From assembly GCF_020382885.2 (NCBI RefSeq), contig NC_058494.1:13844001-13908000 (forward strand): DNA of 64,000 bases. Reading direction: 5' to 3'. The position numbers were made by a program, and so were the translations under genes. Within the stretch, counting starts at the first letter, position 1; the number at the start of each line of letters is the position of its first letter. Shown here one piece after another: positions 16,073-64,000 of this stretch. The notes beneath the pieces were generated by a model that ran no database searches, was not told where the DNA came from, and saw only the letters and a list, made by a program, of their open reading frames with translations. The stretch comes from Scatophagus argus (lineage: Eukaryota; Chordata; Actinopteri; Scatophagidae).

Positions 16073-34157
<18,085 letters not shown>

Positions 34158-47334: not shown

Positions 47335-49020
47335 CTAAAGAACATAGATTCCCATGCTGACTGTGGCCAGAGCCACAACAAGTCCCAGGACCATCCTGAG
47401 GAGTGGAGCACTTTTCATAATGGTTCCATTAATCAGGAGTGTTTCTACTGGTTTGGAGCGTGTTGAACAATTCAGCAACTTGTTTCCAGTGCCGGTCAGC
47501 ATCTTCTGTAAATCCTCAAACACCTGCAATTTTTTAACAAAAGAACAACAAAAAAAAAAACATCCATCAGCTGCTTCTGGCAGAAAAACACAACTGCAAG
47601 AGTAAAGATTAATCGTGTAAACTCAGCTGCCCTCACTCAGGCCACTCATCGTCGCTCTGTACCTGAATGTTGAACTCGAATGCTCTGACAGCCTCCTCGA
47701 GCACGGCGTTCCTCTCCTCCTCCGTCAGCTCCACGCTATTCATCCGGCTGCGATATAGCTGTTTGAAGAGGTTGGGGCTGGACACACCAGGGAAGGCAAA
47801 GAACGACAGACCCTCGCTGCCCTTCAGCCCCATGGATTTCTGGGCGATTCGACCAAGGACCTGACCTCCTGACAGGTCGCCTAGATAACGGGTGTACGCA
47901 TGGGCTACCAAAAATTCAGGGTTTTCCCTACCAATCTGAAAAGAAGGAGGGAGATGAAGAGTGTTATTTCAGTATCAGACAGCAGAGAAACCGAATGCAG
48001 TATATGCATGATTCAACAAAACGTACTTGTCTCAGTCTGTGGCAGTATCTTTTAGTGGCTGCTGGGACAACAATCTTCTCTCTCCAGTCCTGGCCATAGA
48101 AGTACTCCAGGTCTTTCTCAATGGCCCCCAGCCTGGCCAGTTCAGTAGGGAAGTAAATGGGAGCGACCCCAGGGTGGTTGGAGTTCCTGTCCAGCTCTTC
48201 CTCCAGGGCTTGGTAGATTTCATACAGTGAGCACAAGAGGAGCTGAAGAGGAAGAGGAGGAGGGGGAGAAGAGGTGATGTCAGATAAAAAGATCATGAAA
48301 AGGTAGGAAAAATGTGAGATTATCTGATAAAAATATATATATTGGGCTGTTCTATATTACCTTGTACTGCTGCAGGGTGACTTGTCCCCTCTGGAAGCTC
48401 AGCATCAGTTGTGTGTTTTCTGCCCTGACGTGACTCTCCTTCGTCACCTTTTTGATTTGTTCTGACAAATCTCTGCAGAAAGAAATCAAATCATATTCAG
48501 CGCAGCCCAGTTGACCTCCGCTGTGTTAAAAACAGGTCCTTTCTGACCACTTTGGTCACCTGCAGGGTTGACATTAGTGGCATAAAAGAGCAAAGGGTAG
48601 GAGAAGTACGCATGACATAAACGTAAAGAACGTATATGAGACTCCAAAGTACAGAGAACACATTGTGGGAATTACTGCAACGCATCTGGATTTTTATCTA
48701 ATGTAGGCAACACAAAGCTGATAAACCACCACAAGCACAAAGGGAAAGTCAGCACATTACAGCACCACAAACCTGCTTTTGGATACTGCAGCATTAATGC
48801 AGATATGGTCATCCTAACTCAGTCAGAGTTTAATGTCTTCTAAGATATTTACAGTTTGAACACAATATTGTAGGAGGCTTTCATGGGACGAGCAATGCAA
48901 TGCCTAATGGTGACATGTGATCGAGTTAAAAGATGTGAAGATAAAATGAATCATAGTAGCTCATTCTTACCCGTCACACATCTGTTCTGCTGCTGTCTGA
49001 GTCTTCTTCTCTGTCTCCAT
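47335..49020 (-). CDS. hmox1: heme oxygenase 1
   Basis: Heme oxygenase 1 oxidises heme to biliverdin, CO and Fe2+ with electrons from cytochrome P450 reductase on the ER membrane. Five coding exons on the minus strand, 49020-48971, 48472-48361, 48242-48027, 47935-47663 and 47523-47335, give 279 residues (human 288). All junctions are in phase with AG/GT. The proximal heme-ligand His is H31 in [17 protein letters not shown]. The signature [20 protein letters not shown] carries the distal-helix GDLSGG with its catalytic Asp. [18 protein letters not shown] is also typical. A C-terminal hydrophobic anchor ([20 protein letters not shown] then IYVL) marks a tail-anchored ER protein, as in HMOX1. 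The exon with the ATG carries only seven untranslated bases before an acceptor, so a noncoding first exon exists upstream. Teleosts have hmox1a and hmox1b; which one this is cannot be decided. Confidence 0.97.
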
Positions 49021-51613: not shown

Positions 51614-54270
51614 ATGGATGGTGAAGCAGGCCGCAGACAGAAGAAAAGTTCCTACAGAGACTTAATGATGGATGAGGAGGAGCTGGAGGAGCCCGATTTG
51701 GAGTATGAGAAATGTAGCACCAAGAGGCTTTGCAAGGTGGACTGCACTGATAGTTAGAGGAAAGTTGGAGAATTTGTTGTTAAGTTTTAAGAAACAGCAG
51801 CTGTGATTAGTGGTGTGACAAGTAATAGATGACATACTGTCTTGGCATATGTTATTAATACACTGGCATCAATATTATACGCAATGTCAGAATGACATGC
51901 TGAATTGCAGACAACGAACTGGTTGCACAGCAGACATTCTGACATGTCATAATAGGAAACTCACAGGTGCATTAATGATTGCTGTATTCCACTTGGAGGA
52001 GAACCTGCTGTAATGCCTGCTGGCTCAAAGTCACTGTTACTGGGACGCTTAATGGAACCGTGCTATTCTTGCAGTTGTTTATTTAGCTTGTGTGTTTTTC
52101 TGCCTGTAGCAAGTTGAAATGTCTGCTGTACAACCAGTCCGTTGAGCTCAGAACTGTTCTGCTTTGTGGCAGCCTTAAATAAGTTAATGTCTGTGTGTGT
52201 GAAATAACGACGCTCACTGTGCAGTTTGGCACACACTGGCAGCTTGTATAATGCAGTAAATGAATACAGCGTATGATCGATTGAATATTGATCCCTGACG
52301 TTAGCTGTATGTTTTCCTGATTAGTTGCACAGCTATTGTTGCACGCTACAGACGGCTGTCTTGGAGTTATCTCGTTATTTTCGTATGTTGTGATTCGCTT
52401 TAATTGCTAGCTCCAGCTGTGACATCTTATTGCACGCTTCTTTTCAGGAACCGAATGTTTTGCTCAACAACAGAAGACGACCATCTGGTGAGGTACTTTT
52501 AACGTTGGCTGTGTGCGTTAACCATGTGTCACCTGTGCAGGTAGCTGAAGGTCTTTTTATATTGTAGCTCGCATATCCATCATAATACAGTATGTCTCGG
52601 TAGTAAATAATGAGCAAACTTCTCTGAAATTGTCACCTTTCATAATCACATGGCAATCATGATCACAGTATCATCATCTATCATAACTGTCATACATAAT
52701 ACACTGTAATACATGACATTGCAGGCAAGAGTGGAACAGAGCCTGAACTTCATGGAGCGGACTCCTCCAGTCTCCACCCTGCGTATACGATCTGTGTGCC
52801 ACAAGATAAATTGGGAATAAGAGGAGGAGAAAAGGTGAGAGAATAGATGGGCTCTATAAATAACATAGGATTAAATGCATTTTACTCTTTAAAGTTAAGT
52901 TTGTCTGTGGATGTTAGGATTCTAAAAACATCGATACTTTCATCCCTTCCACATTTGCTCATGATTTATGGTATATGTAAACTCGTCCTTGCAGGATAAC
53001 CGAGACAAGTTGTTATTTTCATGTTGCACAGCAGAGGGCAGCATTGATCAGGTAATTATCCTGTGTGTTATTCAAGGCTTTCTTACCCTTTCACTTCTAC
53101 TCATCATCATTTTTCTACCTTTCTCGTGCTCCCAGGCAAATTCAAGCTCCATGTTGAAGTACTGGGTTTATGTAGATAACCAGCACAGTGTGACAGACTG
53201 TCCCGTTAGCAGAGCTATCACCCCTCCTGCCACTCCAGGAACCCATGGGGCTTGTCCGTTCATACCTGTTCCACATCCAGTGACAGCTTCTATAATGAGC
53301 TCTGCAGTTAATCCCATGATGTATAGCCCCGTGACTGACACCTGCAGTCCCATTAGTTCTAAGTGCAGTCCCCCTGGTTCAGCCTGGGACACTCTCAGAT
53401 CCTCATCCAGGAGTATTGGCTGCTCTGACTGGGGTCCTGTCAGTACTGCAGCTCATCTACACCTGTTGGGGGAATCCTTGTCCCTGATTGGACAACATCT
53501 TCAGGAGACAAATGTGAGTGGATTCTAAAAGTGTAGAACTCATAGTGCTCCTGAGCAAGCTATATGGCACTGAATACAACTCACCGTACCTGGCATCCAA
53601 TCTAAATTACTGTTCATGAATTTGGGGTGGGACAATGATACATTTTGTGATGGATAAAGTGTATTGTAGAGTTGAAAATTGTACAAACAAAAGTGACAGG
53701 GGCCAAGTTAATCACGTAAATTTGTCTTACAAGACAGCAGCAGCCTTGGTTAGTTGATCCATACAAGCTGACCTGCCCAATAAGAAGACCACAGGCAAAG
53801 AAATAATCTTAAAAAATGACATCTTGAAATCTGTGAAAACTGCGAGGTTGACTGATGGGTCTGCTCCAGTTTTGACACAGACATGTGCCTCTACACGACT
53901 ACAACCGACTACATGATCAATAATGGCACGGTTCATTTAGCCTAAAGAGGACATGACTGCACTGAGGGATGATAATTGCCTTCCTTTGTGTCTCTGCAGA
54001 AAATGGTGAATATGTCAAGCAGCTTGTCTCTTCTCTTGGACTCTCTGCTGTGTGCCTTAGCTCCTCTAATCTGCCTCACTGTTGAGATACCCGAACTGAG
54101 AAGCTGTACACAACACACACTGGTGAGACATGCAGCCCCTTAACAGAGCATTCACACCACTCTGGTTTTATGCGCATGAGTGAAATGAACAACCTTTTTT
54201 TTTTTTTAAATCAATCCTTTGTCAGGCCTCCACTCTGGAAAACATTGCCTATCTGATGCCAGGGATGTGA
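51614..54270 (+). CDS. hmgxb4: HMGXB4-like protein lacking a recognisable HMG box
   Basis: HMGXB4 (HMG2L1) is a nuclear HMG-box protein linked to Wnt repression and NURF. Seven exons, 51614-51736, 52448-52487, 52725-52834, 52995-53051, 53136-53513, 54000-54122 and 54226-54270, join in frame to about 291 residues; human has about 600. The N-terminus [20 protein letters not shown] matches SQREKKRSYKDFLREEEEI. The C-terminus [20 protein letters not shown] then [20 protein letters not shown] and [13 protein letters not shown] matches the human [20 protein letters not shown]...LDNIAYIMPGL closely. Between them are only about 170 residues, with no Lys-rich region and no HMG box. DNRDKLLF at 92-99 faintly recalls EKDKLIW of the box's last helix. 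The start at 51614 follows an acceptor directly; a 12-codon upstream extension is possible. An unseen exon could restore the box, but phases already match without one. Confidence 0.8.
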
Positions 54271-56478: not shown

Positions 56479-58590
56479 TACTCATTTCACCTGAGTACTC
56501 AACTCACCGTACCTTCACCGTGTGCACTATGGAGAATTAAATTTGTTGATGCTGTTAAAATGGACTCCCCTTTTTCCCAGCTCCCAAGGAGGACCAGTGC
56601 AGATTAACAGCAGAGTGCAGTCCAAAACAAAGAAGATTTATTTTTCTTATTAATAATAAACCAACAAAGGTGTGAGGGTGAGCATGGCCCAAAATAACAA
56701 ACAAAACAGTACTGAAATAACCTAAACTAGCTTTGCTTGCTCACAGATCGAACAAAAGAAAATACAACCAGCTTACCTAAAGTCCCTGACTAAAAAAAGG
56801 ATAAAAACATTGCAAAAAAAAGGAGAAAAGGAGAATTAATGAAAAGGACTTCCCACCCCTACAGTTACTTAGACCGCTTGTTTGGTCAGGACTGTATTCA
56901 ATATTTACAGAAAGGAGCAAGCTCTAAGCAATCTGTAGCAGCACACATCACTCATCAGTACAGCAGAGGTCAGTATTGGCAGAGTCAGGCTGGGAGTCAG
57001 CCTGCCAGCTGACACGGTCAGTGCCATTTTAAAAGAGGTACCATTAGTCTCCCTTCCAATCAGCAGTCACTTCCTGCAGTTCAGAAATAAGGCAAGAAAA
57101 ACTCAACAGAAAAGAGAGAACCGCCTCTTTGCAGAAGGGATACCAAGAATACCTTAAAGAACTTTGCAGTACAAATTATGACTCAGGGTCATAACAATGC
57201 CCATCTGTAGGACCTTGTGAAGTTGTCAGATCTGGTCTGTGAGATGCCCTCATTCCTGATAAGAGAAGGCAGCTGTAGCATATCAGAATAGCATGTCAGG
57301 CGTGTTTAAATGGCTGTCAGCCTGCACGCCTGTAAAACCTGAGCTCATCCATGAGTTTTGACACTTAATGAGCGTGATTAAATAAGAGTAGAATGATTCA
57401 CATGTTCCTCAGGATGCACCTCCTCCACCCCATCTCGGAATGCTTAGCAGCCTGCAGACAAAAGAAACCTGTTGTGCACGCAAAAATATATTCATCAGTG
57501 TGTTCATGTGTGCATGTGTTCAGAACTGGGAGTGGTGAGACTGGCAGCTCCCTGAACCTCGCCTGCAACAGGACATGTACTGAAGTTGTCTGACTGAGAA
57601 ACAACAGAGCACACAGAGGAGGCAGTACATGAACATAGCTTCAACAACCTCAAACTGTTGAGTAAGTATGTTTTGTTTTTGTTTTAATTTTAGTAATATG
57701 TTTATAAAACTAAGGCGTTCATGTTATCTTAGTGTTATGGTGGGTGTAAATGAAGCAGTAAATTGTATCTAGTTAATGATCTTTCAGATTTCTTTGCCTT
57801 ATTTCTATCTCTATGTAACAACAGCAGTGTAGGGTTTTCATGCCACCTGTGTGTATGTCTGAGAAAAAGGCTGTTTTATTTGAACTGTGAGAAGACAGTA
57901 GACTGCACTCTGTCATCTGGTTATACGCATTACTTAAAGGACTGTGCTGATGCAAAGTTAACATTTCACCACTGCTAAAAGTCTGCAGTGTTAGCATGCT
58001 ATTGCTCTTTAGTGTGGTGCAGTATGTTCAGTTGTTGCATTTGAAGCGTTTTGTGTGTGTGTATGCATATCAGTATGAATTAAGTTCAAATAGAATGTGG
58101 TCGGACAGGACCGGCGAGATGTGGCGCACCCTCAGGGCACCCTGAGAAAAAAAGGGATGCGGTTACAAAGGGAGGAAGAATTCCAGTAAAAAGAAAGTTG
58201 CATTTAAGAGCATAGCTGTTACTAGTTCTCTCAGTTCTCGTTCACTCAAGGTGACGGGATGGAGTTAATATTTAGAAAATGAAATTCTCAAATTCTCTTT
58301 TGATTCTCAAAGGAAATTAAATAATCAAACTGTTCTTTTGCCTGTTGGACATACAGTCAGAGGATTGAGGCAATCATACACATGTCACATAAGAAGCAGA
58401 CAAGACTTACGTTACAACCTTCATGCTTACGTTACATTACATGAATTAACTAACTAAACTTGTAGTCCAACCTCAGTTTTAAATGCAAGTGGTTTCATTT
58501 TAATTTCAGTCTATTGACAAACGTTAGGGTAAACCCATAAATATGAACACACTCTCACAACACACCTTTGTTTTTGTTTGCTGTCCAGCT

Positions 58591-61500
58591 ATGAGTGAAC
58601 GCTTTAGAGAAAGCTACTCCGGGTCCTCGCCCCCACAGCTCAGACTTGTTCTTTTGGGAAACATTGGCTGTGGAAAGACTTCATCAGCAGACACCATACT
58701 GGGCCAGCTGTCCCCTGTCTCCCCCAGTGCTTCCAGGAGCTGTCAGCTGCGACAGGGCACCTGTAATGGCAGGAATGTCACTCTGGTGGAGGCACCGAGA
58801 TGGTACTGGACTGGTGGGAAGATGGAGGACAGCGTCAGGAAGGAGACGGAGCGAGCGATGAGGCTAGTAGCACCGGGCCCACATGCTCTTTTGCTGCTGG
58901 TGCCTGTTAACCAGTTCACAGAGGTTGGTTGTGACCCCACTTGTGTTTTCAAATTGTTTCTCATTATTGATGTCAATTATTAATTTTAAAAGTAAAAGCT
59001 TTGATTTGCGCTTCTCTCATTCCCAATGCATTAGATGGAGGGTCGGGTACCTGCAGAGCTGAAGGAGGTGTTTGGGGAGGAGGCACTGGATCACGCCCTG
59101 GTCTTGCTGACCTGTGGGGACTACTTGATGGGAAGAAAAGTGGAGGTATGAGTATCCAGTCTGTACTCATCAGCTTCTGTTTGTAAGAGCAGCAGAGATG
59201 CAGTCCATAACAAATCTGAATTGTTTTCCACAGGAATACCTGCAGACAGAACACCCAGGCCTGAGGCAGATGATTGAGCACTGTGGAGGGAGGTACCATG
59301 TCATAAATAACCGTCAGCGGCAGAACAGAGACCAGGTCCATGAGCTTCTGGAGAAGGTAAGAAGTTAAATTAACAAAAAAATGAACAAAAAAGCCCCAAG
59401 AGCAGAGGCTGCACACACATTCTGCAATATGTATTGTAAACAGCTTCTTTGTTTTCACATTATTTAGTCACAATAATCACAATCACGTTATTGGTCTCAC
59501 CTCACAGTTTAGTCAACTTTGATGAGTACAAAAAATATTTTGCTGTTGTGCAACAGCTCTTTGTTTTAACTGTGTTGTGTTTTGTAATATTTTTTCCTTA
59601 GCAACTCACTCCCTGTTAGGCACAATCACACCCAGTCATAATCAGGTCCAGTTTGGGTATTAACGATCAGGCTGATGACATATAACCCCGACAGCCATGG
59701 AATTAATACCACAGTGGAGATGAACAGCAGGAATTTCTGTGAATGCTGGAACCCTTCACATCAATTCATTACACTGCATTCACACCACAGTTTATTTAGA
59801 AATTGCCTCTCTAGTTATGAAATATCACACTGTAATCGTAAATGTGAGCATTTGGGGCATTCCTGAAATGTTTTTTTTAAAAATGCATTTATTTATGCAA
59901 CAGGTGGACCACATGGTGAGGAAACATGGGGTTTATTATATGAAAACAGCCGAGGAGAGAGAGCTGGAGAAACGAGTGAAAGACAGAAAGCGAGAACTTA
60001 TGGAAAATTACAGAGCTCAAAAGGAGGAGAGAAAAGAGATGATCGCTTCAAAGCACATCCCAAACACAGAAACACAGAGGAGCAGTGATGGAGGAGAGGA
60101 GTACAGCACCACTTTGGAGAGGAGGAGAAGAGAAGAGACAGATGTGGTGGAGGGAAGAGTCGGTGTGAGCGAAGTGTCAAATGGACTTCATTCACCTCCA
60201 GCACCAGAGCCTCATGATGTCAGGCAAGAGAAGAGGACACCCAGTTTCAGACTAAATGCAGGTAAAAGCCATTGGAATTAGGTTCTGGGGGGGTTAGCTG
60301 TGGCCTAGACGTTGGAGAAATGGCTTGTGACCGGAAGGTCGCTGGTTCGATTCCCCCCTGGAGTGACAGGTGTGGTGGAGTGATTAATCAGTCCTCCCCG
60401 ATGTACCCTTGAGCAAGGCACTTAACCCCCCAGTTTGCTCCCTGGGCGCCTGAAATGGCAGCCCACTGCTCCTGTATGTTTCACTGCATGTTGCATGTGT
60501 GTGCTCAATCAGTGATGGGTTAAATACAGAGAAGAATTTCGATATATGTAAAAATATACTGACGATAAAGGTTTGAAGTTTGAATTCGAAAAACGAATGT
60601 GAGCTGAAAATGAACAGTTTTCATATGTCCTGTTTTTGCTCTGTAGATGGAGCCATACTCTCACAAATGTCTGAGGAGAAATCATCTCCAAAAGTGATCA
60701 GCATGTGTAAGTCAGAGGACCTCACTGACTCATGTTAGGTCACAGTTCACTTCTATGATGTTTTATGTTGAGAATGAATTGTCATTTTTTCTTTTCCATA
60801 CTATACATATCTCCATATTTCACCTCAATCTTCTCAGTTCACCATAGAATCAACAGCTTTGAAAATCGATCCCCTGAGCCATCTCCGACCTCCACTTCTC
60901 ATTCGCCCGTCTTCTCCTCCTCACCCCCCCACTCTCCAAACCTTGCCTCCTCTCCCACCTCCACCTCCTCATTCCCCTCATCCGCCTCATCCTCCTCATC
61001 CCCCTCATCCTCTCCGGAGCTACGCCTGGTGCTGCTTGGGCGATCTGGAGCTGGGAAGAGTGCAGCTGGCAACGCCATACTGGGACGGGAGGAGTTTGAG
61101 TCACGGCCAGAAAGCCTCACAGCGATCACTAAGGAGTGTGAGAAAAAGAAAGGCCTGACTGAAGGAAGACAGGTAAGTTATTAAAATCTTAATTGCTTTC
61201 ATGTTTTCATTCATGCATGTGCCTTTACTAAAACCGCCAAATAGCTAATCTTTGACACTCTCTTCTTGTTTTGTGTCATGAAACAATGCAAACTGGCTGA
61301 TTTCCCATGAAGCAACTCTTTATATTGCTGTAAGTGTCTCCTCTCTCACCTGCAGGTGGCAGTGGTGGACACCCCAGACTGGTTTAATTCAGAGCAAACT
61401 CCAGATGAAGTGCGAGCTCAGATCTCCACCTGTGTTACTTTGTCCAGTCCTGGTCCTCATGCCTTCCTCCTGTGTGTGCCATTAGACCAGCCAGCAAAGA

Positions 61501-62936
61501 CAGAGCTGCAGGCTCTCGGAGCGCTTGAGTCTGTTTTTGGCCCAGAGGCAGTCCAGAAACACACTCTGGTCCTCTTTACTTATGCAGATAGACTGAAGGA
61601 GAGCGGGAAGGCTGTAAACGACAGCGTGGAGGCATACATTGCTGGTCAGCGAGGAGATTTGTTAAAGCTTGTGGAGAAATGTGGGGACAGGTTTCATGTG
61701 ATGGAGACGGAAGGAGGTTGGAGGAAGAAGAAGAATGTGGCAGAGCTTCTAGAGAAGGTGGAGCGGACAGTGAAGGAGGCTGGAGGACAGTGTTACTCTT
61801 GTCCTGCTTTTCAAGAGGCGGAGAACAGAGTGAGGCAGAGACAGGTGGAGATAGCAAGGGAGAGAAAGGGAACAAAACTAGAGAAAGAAAGACAAGGAGA
61901 TGTTAGTCAGCCCAGCTCTGAGAGGAGGGTACTTTATCCCTACATGCAGACTGTGGCTGAGGCAGAAGAGGAAGTGAGAGAGGATGAGATTGAGAAAACA
62001 AGGGATGAGGCAGAGATGAGTGTAAGAACTGTGAATATCGAGAGCCTTCCTCCTGTTACGCTATCCACCATGTCTCCTTCACTCCTCCGTTCCATAATGG
62101 AGAAAATGGAGTCTAGTGCAAAGAATTTACCCAAGCTGCTGGCAGACAGCTCTGTGTGGGTCGGCGAGGGAGCAAAGAAGGTGAAAAGTAGTCCGGTGTG
62201 GGGGACAGTCAGTGGTGGAGCGCAAAATGTCCAGAAGATGGTGGTTGATAGTTCTGTGTGGGGGAAGGTGGGAGCTAGTGCCGGACATGTGTCCAAGCTA
62301 GTAGGGGATAGAGTTCCCAAGGTAGTGGTGGATGGTTCTGCATGGGTGGGATCTGGGGCAAAGGCAGCGGCAGCGAGTCCCGTGTGGGAAAAAGTTGGTT
62401 CAGGGGCCAAACTAATGGCGGACAGCTCAGTGCGTGTCGGAGCCGGGATTGGAACCGGGGCAAAGAATTTGGCGCAGAGTCCTGTGTGGGGGAAAGTAGG
62501 ATCTGGGGCCAAGACTGGAGCTAAACTGGTGGCTGAAAGCTCCGTGCGAGTTGGAGCTGGAATTGGTGCCGGTGCGAAGAAGGTGGCACAGAGTCCAGTC
62601 TGGGGGAAGGTGGGCTCTGGGGCCAAAGCAGGGGCCAAAATGGTGACTGAGAGCTCAGTATGGGAGAAAATTGGGACTACTGCTAAACAGGTGCCCATGG
62701 TAGTCATATTGGGTGCATTGCTGGGTCTGGTACTTGGCGTGTTTTTGGGGGGGGTAATTGGCGGAGCTGTTGGGGCAGCTGCTGGATCTGCTGTAAGTGA
62801 AGTGGGCAGACGAAAATTCCGCAACAAATCCATGTTAGAAAGGACAGATGAATCTGCAAAAAATTTGGAAGCAACAGTGAATGATAGCGTGGACTCTCTG
62901 ATAAAACAAGGAGAGAAGGTGCTGAAAACTGAATGA
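58591..62936 (+). CDS. GIMAP-like (AIG1) GTPase with two G domains, repeat tail and membrane anchor
   Basis: AIG1/GIMAP proteins are septin-like GTPases on intracellular membranes, linked to immune cells and expanded in fish. Seven exons, 58591-58923, 59035-59145, 59234-59356, 59904-60261, 60647-60706, 60838-61172 and 61356-62936, join in frame to 966 residues. Domain 1 (about 15-215) has P-loop GNIGCGKT (23-30) and G4-like TCGD, but EAPR where the DTPG of G3 is expected. A charged coiled coil follows (AEERELEKRVKDRKREL). After a Ser/Pro linker, domain 2 (about 390-610) has P-loop GRSGAGKS (396-403), G3-like DTPD (445-448) and G4 TYAD. From about 705 to 885 come ten units starting SSV or SPVW, rich in Val-Gly-Ala-Lys. 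A glycine-zipper hydrophobic segment (VVILGALLGLVLGVFLGG, about 889-917) and a 45-residue charged tail end the protein. The start ATG lies two bases after an acceptor, so a leader exon is expected upstream. Function is inferred from family only. Confidence 0.88.
59357..59903 (+). other. intron of the GIMAP-like gene
   Basis: An AT-rich intron lies between GAGAAG|gtaaga and the acceptor tatgcaacag. Nothing else was identified. Confidence 0.75.
60285..60575 (+). mobile_element. tRNA-derived SINE in an intron of the GIMAP-like gene
   Basis: The 5' part has an A-box-like 'tggcctagacgttgg' and a B box 'ggtcgctggttcgattccc', as in tRNA-derived SINEs. The body has 'cccttgagcaaggcacttaa', common in fish SINEs. 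The 3' tail matches the fragment at 46281-46425. It is intact-looking, inserted in the sense orientation between the exons ending at 60261 and starting at 60647. Confidence 0.8.
62376..62705 (+). repeat. tandem coding repeat in the GIMAP-like tail
   Basis: SPVW units start at 62376, 62478 and 62592. The last two are exactly 114 bases (38 codons) apart and encode nearly identical peptides (SPVWGKVGSGAK then SSVRVGAGIGAGAKKVAQ). The spacing before that is 102 bases (34 codons). This is a recent in-frame tandem duplication within a longer, older repeat array that starts near 62148. Confidence 0.85.
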
Positions 62937-64000
62937 TGGGCTGAATGTATATAAAATTTATAACAAATGTAATTCCTTTTGGATTAGTACTGTGTATAGT
63001 GTGAAAACTGTGGTCAGTTTATTTTCCTTTTCATGTTGACAGTTTCATTCTTTTAAGGCTTTCTTCCATTCATTTGTTTTTGTTTCTTTCTTTTTGCATT
63101 CATTCATATGAATGATGATAAACTGATCTAAATCAAGCTAAATTAATTTGTTAGGACAAATATTCAAGTGTTTGTCTTCTATACTGTGTGAAAGGTGTCA
63201 ACTTCTGTATGAAAATAAAGACGAAATTAATTTTTCCACCAGTTGCCTTACTTCTCTTTGGGTGCTGCCACCTTCTGGCCAGTCAAGGTAGCAACCCCTG
63301 AAATAGGCAATGATCAAGTCATGCAACTGCTGAATTAGAGTACTGGCACCTTTTTAGTCCAGTTCAGGCACTGATTAAAAAAATGCAAACTAAAGCTACT
63401 TCAGGACCAGCATGTCCACTCCTCATGTGAGATGTGCAGGTGTAGTATGTAAACGAGTGGTTAAATGGAGCTAGTGGTACTTCTGTGTGAAAATGGGTGG
63501 GACTCTGGTGGCAGCAGGGGCACAGCGAAGGGGTGGAGGCAAGGACATTATCTCTAAGTTCCAGGCTGGCCAGAATTACCCTTCTTGGCCTCCTGTATCA
63601 GAGGATGGAGGGAAGGTTAACACCCCAGCTAAAAGGTTTAATTTTCTTGACCTACTGTATGCCATTGCAATATTAAATAAAATATTTCAGCGGGGCAGTT
63701 TTCAATATTTAAGCGGTGATAGTTGAATTTAAGTAAATTCATCCCAGTCAGGGGAAGACATAAGAGTATTGGTTTAAGATGGACTGGGAAAACAGGATTC
63801 AATTAAAAAAAAATGAGAAAGAGTTTCAAGAGTTAATATTTCTGGACTCAAATGCTCAAAAGTGGGGATCTAAAAATAACCCTGCCAAGTTTGAAGGTGT
63901 GAACGGAATTTAGAGCAAAGTTTAGAGGTGGCACAATTACACATAAAGTTAATGCCAAGATGTTAGTGGATACAAACAGTTGGATTCACATTTGGAAAAG
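62937..64000 (+). other. 3' UTR of the GIMAP-like gene and downstream sequence
   Basis: AATAAA at 63214-63219 is the likely poly(A) signal, about 280 bases after the stop. Beyond it I see no supported gene. A 79-codon open stretch at 63487-63726 has no recognisable features. Confidence 0.5.
63214..63219 (+). promoter_or_regulatory. poly(A) signal of the GIMAP-like gene
   Basis: AATAAA lies in the sequence gaaaataaagacg, within the AT-rich region after the stop. Confidence 0.55.

Follow-up and report, generated by a model that had tools for sequence, protein, structure and literature searches.

Fish GIMAP-type protein with two G domains, a tandem-built juxtamembrane repeat array under selection, and a glycine-zipper membrane segment

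In a 64,000-nucleotide stretch of the Scatophagus argus genome (hereafter the window; contig C2, positions 13844001 to 13908000, of a genome of 570,666,677 bases in 48 contigs), a gene on the plus strand encodes a GIMAP-type protein in which two AIG1-type G domains are followed by a ten-unit repeat array, a glycine-zipper membrane segment, and a C-terminal helix. At the level of sequence, this domain order, the array, the anchor, selection acting on the final two repeat pairs, and an anchor common to a second copy on contig C16 are all established. The identity of the protein as a membrane-anchored, GIMAP-type guanosine triphosphatase (GTPase) is well supported, because it carries AIG1 domains, because its anchor is conserved in the diverged paralog, and because that paralog has a Trp-rich juxtamembrane segment; the immune function suggested in the original prediction is putative. 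Our best reading, to which we give about an even chance, is that the protein is a GTP-gated membrane scaffold or coat, with its weakly amphipathic units resting on the surface of a membrane or lipid droplet.

The spliced model proposed in the original prediction was reproduced: seven coding exons (58591-62936, plus strand) give 2901 bases and 966 residues with no internal stop, and all six introns between coding exons have a GT donor and an AG acceptor. The outcome that the prediction held against itself, an array exon not joined to the G domains, was not found. A single exon, read in one frame, encodes the array and anchor together with the second half of G domain 2, so the array is joined to a G domain without any splice.

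The ten-unit repeat tail was also found as predicted. Units start at residues 705, 719, 739, 767, 781, 797, 815, 835, 853, and 873, with spacings of 14, 20, 28, 14, 16, 18, 20, 18, and 20 residues and no fixed period. The best ungapped self-match of residues 697-888 scores 208, compared with a mean of 37 and a maximum of 58 among 200 shuffles. Two unit types, S-S-V-(W/R) (once G-S-A-W) and S-P-V-W-x-K-V-G-S-G-A-K, mostly alternate, and units are mostly paired at about 30 to 38 residues a pair, apart from an unpaired unit of 28 residues. Constancy is highest at S-P-V-W and K-V-G-S-G-A-K; Ser-Pro begins 4 of the 10 units, and 8 of 10 have Trp at the fourth place. The array is rich in Val (17%), Gly (16%), Ala (14%), Ser (12%), and Lys (11.5%) and holds eight Trp residues (4.3%). 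Residues 697-888 contain 25 Lys or Arg and 10 Asp or Glu, for a net charge of +15. At the nucleotide level, Tandem Repeats Finder detects 2.3 copies of a 114-base unit at window positions 62401-62659.

The last two repeat pairs (38 residues each) align without gaps and differ at 25 of 114 bases, with 5, 0, and 20 differences at codon positions 1, 2, and 3, respectively. Eighteen of the 24 differing codons are silent (nonsynonymous divergence [dN] = 0.075; synonymous divergence [dS] = 1.35), and 32 of 38 residues are kept, compared with a mean of 22.1 and a maximum of 29 in 5000 neutral simulations. These comparisons of the coding sequence show strong purifying selection on the peptide of the last two pairs. 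Gene conversion could keep the units alike but would not favor third positions. Constraint on the older, first pairs is suggested: 39 of 73 differing codons were silent in ten comparisons among five 12-residue cores (four S-P-V-W and one S-S-V-W), and 3 of 9 between the 13-residue cores at residues 705 and 767. An antisense open frame of 347 codons (window positions 61940-62983, minus strand) also spans the array; it is probably a by-product of array composition and was set aside because the changes between the last two pairs sit at third positions of the sense frame.

Immediately after the array, residues 888-921 form a 34-residue run free of D, E, K, R, N, Q, H, and P and are the only membrane-like stretch in the protein (best 19-residue Kyte-Doolittle mean, 2.74, versus 1.23 elsewhere). 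The anticipated Gly-rich hydrophobic helix with GxxxG spacing is present here as a ridge of seven glycines at i+4 (residues 893, 897, 901, 905, 909, 913, and 917), and a run of seven occurred in 10 of 100,000 shuffles of the segment. AlphaFold placed residues 885-965 in one helix in a short model and in two helices, 888-915 and 929-965, in a longer model. Pfam matches of the anchor to DUF456, DUF1269, and Romo1 all fell below curated cutoffs and were taken as shared glycine spacing.

A whole-genome search with residues 671-966 returned two candidates among the places scored, the gene itself and C16:6063621-6063794 (E = 3.2e-6). The C16 copy is a 291-codon open frame (L034:1495-2370, minus strand; within C16:6062121-6068900, loci L034 and L035) that encodes, in this order and in one frame, part of G domain 2, one Trp-rich unit (SSFLWGLWEKVTGWVRWLP), and the anchor. 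It is 48% identical to the G domain 2 exon over 187 aligned positions and 45% identical to the last unit plus zipper over 53 positions. Its single unit retains WEK and is amphipathic, with hydrophobic moments of 0.33 to 0.60 in 16 windows. Over residues 897-917, the C16 copy keeps all eight glycines but only 2 of the 13 remaining residues (Fisher P = 2.2e-4, for one paralog and a core chosen after the alignment had been seen). Below-cutoff Pfam matches of the C16 copy to DUF456, Gly-zipper, and C19orf12-like models were again attributed to glycine spacing. The copy also has Gln at the conserved-box Arg position, and its P-loop and G3 motif are degenerate (GAGKR and SSPAW), so that it may no longer bind GTP.

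Two exons of a neighboring gene upstream of the array gene recur upstream of the C16 copy in the same order and on the same strand (E = 2.5e-9 and 4.1e-7), and the C2 and C16 loci are therefore copies of one chromosome block. Teleosts have undergone a genome duplication, which is most simply the origin of the block copy. G domain 1 was not found in the DNA between the neighboring gene and the C16 copy. The array may have arisen when one juxtamembrane unit, similar to that on C16, was duplicated in tandem, or it may have been lost from the C16 copy; either direction would fit.

The array-bearing tail is special to this gene, and the glycine zipper is not. No second array was found when residues 671-966 were searched against the whole 570-Mb genome, in which initial filtering limits the places scored. 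Similarly, the tail had no match among solved structures (phmmer, E ≤ 10) and no Pfam match above cutoff, and no GIMAP with a repeat array was described in the literature searched (titles and abstract openings among the matches listed, with subscription papers largely outside its coverage). Searches beyond this genome gave 17 pattern matches to exon 7 in viral contigs; prokaryote contigs gave 78 pattern matches, and neither set yielded a confirmed relative. Three viral loci share one 19-residue stretch with the tail; the one that was compared was otherwise unlike it, and all three were taken as chance. Orthologs probably exist in public fish databases under automatic names.

Tails were compared across 37 distinct AIG1-bearing frames at 28 loci (L004-L031, some overlapping or near-identical), which are part of the AIG1 places of the genome. 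The array motif did not occur three or more times in any frame of these loci. A hydrophobic C-terminal stretch (Kyte-Doolittle > 1.6) was present in 8 of the 37 frames, and runs of at least four glycines spaced every four residues occurred at three loci (L024, L028, and L029); a hydrophobic, often glycine-rich anchor thus recurs among the GIMAPs of this genome. L028 and L029 (C23:12216000-12239000) hold clustered GIMAPs with hydrophobic, Gly-spaced C termini. The anchors of three L028 frames and one L029 frame look similar (GALLGxF in two), but 2 to 23 of 300 shuffles reach their scores; these C termini are possibly of the same anchor type. Another frame, L024:3995-6067 (minus strand, in C16:6879000-6888000), is a GIMAP of 691 codons with a 396-residue Gly/Ala-rich C-terminal extension. 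This extension was considered as a relative of the array (E = 6.8e-6 uncorrected) and set aside as mainly compositional: after composition correction, a 21-residue piece remained (E = 0.007 for the pair), with 3 of 300 shuffles reaching its score.

The two predicted AIG1-type G domains are confirmed by Pfam, whose AIG1 model matches the protein in two stretches (E = 1.9e-87; 292.5 bits for the whole protein, with a cutoff of 27), and the solved relatives found were GIMAP7, 4, 5, 2, and 1. In the translation, both domains have the P-loop G1 motif GxxGxGK[ST] (GNIGCGKT and GRSGAGKS); the G3 motif with its Asp is VDTPD in domain 2, whereas domain 1 has VEAPR in place of VDTPG. Alignment to the solved GIMAPs places the conserved box and the G5/IAN region at GPHALLLLVPV and CGGRYHVINN in domain 1 and the corresponding box and G5 at GPHAFLLCVPL and CGDRFHV, lacking NN, in domain 2. 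Where a coiled coil would be looked for in a GIMAP, charged segments follow both domains by eye, and the segment after domain 2 is helical in a low-confidence AlphaFold model.

Both G domains have Gln at the position of the conserved-box Arg (LGRYT in GIMAP7; alignments to GIMAP7, 5, 4, and 2). This Arg is presumably residue 103, the catalytic Arg of GIMAP7; to our knowledge, a catalytic Arg is not a defining feature of the AIG1/GIMAP family as a whole. GIMAP7 is described, in the accessible part of one report, as supplying a catalytic arginine finger (PMC8066113). GTP turnover would thus be slow or absent in both domains, given the replacement of the GIMAP7 Arg in each and, in domain 1, the additional change to VEAPR.

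Four exons encode domain 1 and two encode domain 2. Among 89 exon-level AIG1 matches scored in the genome, by contrast, each of the best 25 spans the domain without a break, starting at position 1 or 2 and reaching position 201 or further. In a 48-domain tree, neither G domain grouped with starred support with any other or with its partner; the 46 other domains were matches of at least 150 aligned residues with near-duplicates dropped, the C16 relative not included.

The amphipathicity of the array is modest but above controls. On a helical wheel of the S-P-V-W unit, K6, K12, K16, S9, T19, and E20 lie on one face and V3, W4, V7, A11, A15, M17, and V18 on the opposite face. The length-weighted mean hydrophobic moment is 0.31 per unit, with a mean hydrophobicity of 0.298. 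For ten 18-mers, the mean moment was 0.309, compared with 0.186 when one permutation was applied to all units, a control that preserves their relatedness; 23 of 2000 permutations reached 0.309. We also applied the first two criteria of a septin study, as given in the part of that paper available (PMC11238149). The charge-weighted D exceeded 0.68 in 8 of 10 units (15 of 2000 permutations reached 8), and D together with a run of three bulky residues held in 5 of 10 (67 of 2000 reached 5).

Several observations weigh against a lipid-binding array. Half of the units (5 of 10) pass both septin-study criteria, single-unit moments at 100 degrees reach P < 0.05 in 4 of 10, and pooling by type gives same-permutation P values of 0.043 (six 13-residue S-S/G-S cores) and 0.066 (four 16-residue S-P cores). 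Taken as a whole, the array gives no 100-degree signal (z = 0.29, with peaks at 75 and 105 degrees) because unit spacing varies. Glycine, at 16%, disfavors helix in water, and selection is strong for the last two pairs only, older cores having fewer silent changes. AlphaFold, run on the single sequence with low confidence (mean predicted local distance difference test [pLDDT] scores of 40.7 and 54.2 in the two models), returned mostly coil over the array (pLDDT, ~25 to 45), interrupted in the short model by a single helix of 11 residues. At these scores, we regard the modeled coil as uninformative rather than negative.

A membrane coat is nonetheless the best-supported reading, drawing on modest amphipathicity, composition, and a paralog, and it would work as follows. 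One glycine-ridged helix would fix a GIMAP-type, septin-like GTPase in an intracellular membrane with both G domains in the cytosol. G domain 2 would bind GTP and, since both domains lack the catalytic Arg of GIMAP7, hold it rather than turn it over quickly, dimerizing or assembling in the bound state, with G domain 1 as a degenerate partner. The Gly ridge would pack anchors side by side, so that cytosolic and in-membrane assembly reinforce each other. The array units, unfolded in solution, would fold as short helices begun by Ser-Ser or Ser-Pro and run along the surface of the membrane or lipid droplet, Val, Trp, and Ala facing down and Lys facing up, to form a multivalent, weak, positively charged coat gated by GTP. 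More tentatively, and as something short of probable, we suggest a fish GIMAP lineage older than the block duplication, one copy of which has a tandem-built ten-unit coat, a self-packing anchor, and two noncatalytic G domains. Such a GTP-gated, perilipin-like coat, built from a juxtamembrane unit, would have no counterpart among the other GIMAPs known to us.

The array might instead be a flexible spacer, a disordered tether that keeps the G domains off the membrane, or condenses, without lipid binding. Its Val/Gly/Ala/Ser/Lys-rich composition resembles that of elastin, and the AlphaFold coil and irregular unit spacing would agree with such a tether. We consider this somewhat improbable: a simple spacer has no need for the retention of 32 of 38 residues or for a fourth-place Trp in 8 of 10 units, the amphipathicity exceeds the relatedness-keeping control, and in the C16 copy, with its one unit, the corresponding position is taken by an amphipathic segment rich in Trp. 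The motif-like constancy of S-P-V-W and K-V-G-S-G-A-K and the retention of WEK in the C16 unit could also indicate a protein-docking array, in which Ser-(Ser/Pro)-Val-Trp units are linear motifs that recruit a partner with avidity and the anchor alone contacts the membrane; however, the units show amphipathic ordering as well, and docking alone seems unlikely. A functionless, drifting coding minisatellite, or a gene-model artifact with the array unjoined to the G domains, is very improbable and already largely contradicted. The Tandem Repeats Finder array counts in favor of this reading; against it, exon and frame are common to the array and half of G domain 2, most codon changes between the last two pairs are silent, and on C16, too, a single open frame runs from G domain 2 through the anchor.

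The features of the gene and its product are placed in the window in Table 1.

Table 1. Features of the GIMAP-type gene and its product, in window coordinates
Feature	Window positions	Strand	Content or basis
Candidate 5' noncoding exon	57590..57661	+	By eye; 57590 is an arbitrary start; GTAAGT donor at 57662; acceptor AG ends at 58588
Coding exon 1	58591..58923	+	Start codon; G domain 1: G1 GNIGCGKT, degenerate G3 VEAPR, conserved box with Q for R
Coding exon 2	59035..59145	+	G domain 1, G4 region TCGD
Coding exon 3	59234..59356	+	G domain 1, G5/IAN region CGGRYHVINN
Coding exon 4	59904..60261	+	End of G domain 1, charged segment, linker
Coding exon 5	60647..60706	+	Linker
Coding exon 6	60838..61172	+	Ser/Pro-rich linker, then start of G domain 2 (GRSGAGKS)
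Coding exon 7	61356..62936	+	One open frame: remainder of G domain 2, charged helical segment, array, membrane segment, C-terminal helix, stop
Strongly amphipathic segment before array, residues 683-700	62082..62135	+	Hydrophobic moment 0.59
Ten-unit repeat array, residues 705-887	62148..62696	+	Unit starts, self-match, codon comparison
Two aligned 38-residue supra-repeats, residues 797-834 and 835-872	62424..62651	+	Codon comparison, Tandem Repeats Finder
Glycine-zipper membrane segment, residues 888-921	62697..62798	+	Hydropathy, Gly spacing, related segment in C16 paralog
C-terminal helix, residues 929-965	62820..62930	+	AlphaFold helix; amphipathic part residues 947-965, moment 0.57
Poly(A) signal AATAAA, probable gene end	63214..63219	+	By eye

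Within the gene, a 9/18/27-base tandem repeat (window positions 60946-61010), likely a length-variable site, encodes some of the Ser/Pro linker that leads into G domain 2. Matches to an interferon-response pattern, GAAANNGAAA, number 15 in the window against an expectation of 4.2, and three fall within or close to the gene (58275, 61142, and 63023); the pattern was too unspecific and was not used. The neighboring gene whose exons recur on C16 lies in frames at 52965-53525 and 53976-54140; we take it to be HMGXB4, although Pfam gives no match. The window also contains heme oxygenase exons (47633-48356, minus strand; Pfam PF01126) and exons of the CTF/NF-I family (17892-18311 and 28143-28592, plus strand; Pfam PF00859).

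The original prediction likened the units to perilipin repeats, a comparison that held in part: the composition, the weak amphipathicity with a similar moment, the low hydrophobicity, and the net positive charge agree, whereas the irregular units, eight Trp residues, Ser-Pro starts in 4 of 10 units, and absence of an 11-residue period do not. Because of this irregularity, the Trp content, and the Ser-Pro starts, the units would not form one continuous 3-11 helix, and the perilipin analogy is best treated as compositional only. Perilipin 4 (Plin4) is a proven lipid-droplet coat whose helix is unfolded in solution. Its mean hydrophobic moment is only 0.257 (HeliQuest; 0.35 for Plin3), as reported in the available portion of PMC5889406, so a low moment such as that of the array is compatible with a lipid coat. 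Perilipin 4/synuclein-type repeats described there are likewise weakly amphipathic, Val/Gly/Lys containing, and similar in moment, but they have strict 11/33-residue periods and almost no aromatics, compared with irregular units of 14 to 28 residues and 4.3% Trp here.

Among GTPases, septins provide a parallel to the architecture proposed here. According to the accessible text of PMC11238149, these related GTPases combine amphipathic helices with a coiled coil and, in some cases, a membrane segment, and arginine-finger loss is linked to hetero-oligomers; they carry a septin domain, whereas the protein described here carries AIG1 domains. Human GIMAP2 likewise pairs an AIG1 domain with a membrane-anchoring C terminus, but its solved chains have one G domain, with Arg at the conserved-box position, whereas the present protein has two, with Gln. 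GIMAP functions are poorly understood. In the available parts of two reports (PMC8201404, PMC9881219), the member placed on lipid droplets is GIMAP2, by way of a double hydrophobic segment, and no repeat array is described for it, compared with ten units here. Mammalian GIMAP8 also has more than one AIG1 domain per chain, three according to the accessible part of PMC8201404. In this genome, several frames contain two or three AIG1 stretches, but with the G domains in one exon, and the array is absent from the multidomain GIMAP frames examined. The one relative of the tail found in this genome is the C16 copy, which shares the G domain 2 exon, a related anchor, the upstream neighbor, and the exon layout but has one unit and one G domain rather than ten and two. 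Paralogs with ten units and one unit beside a related anchor make the role of the juxtamembrane repeat directly testable by tail swap, and the array may show how a long membrane-binding strip grows by tandem duplication of one unit. Judged from its sequence against these systems, the protein is a GIMAP whose juxtamembrane array is unusual, built in tandem, and under selection.

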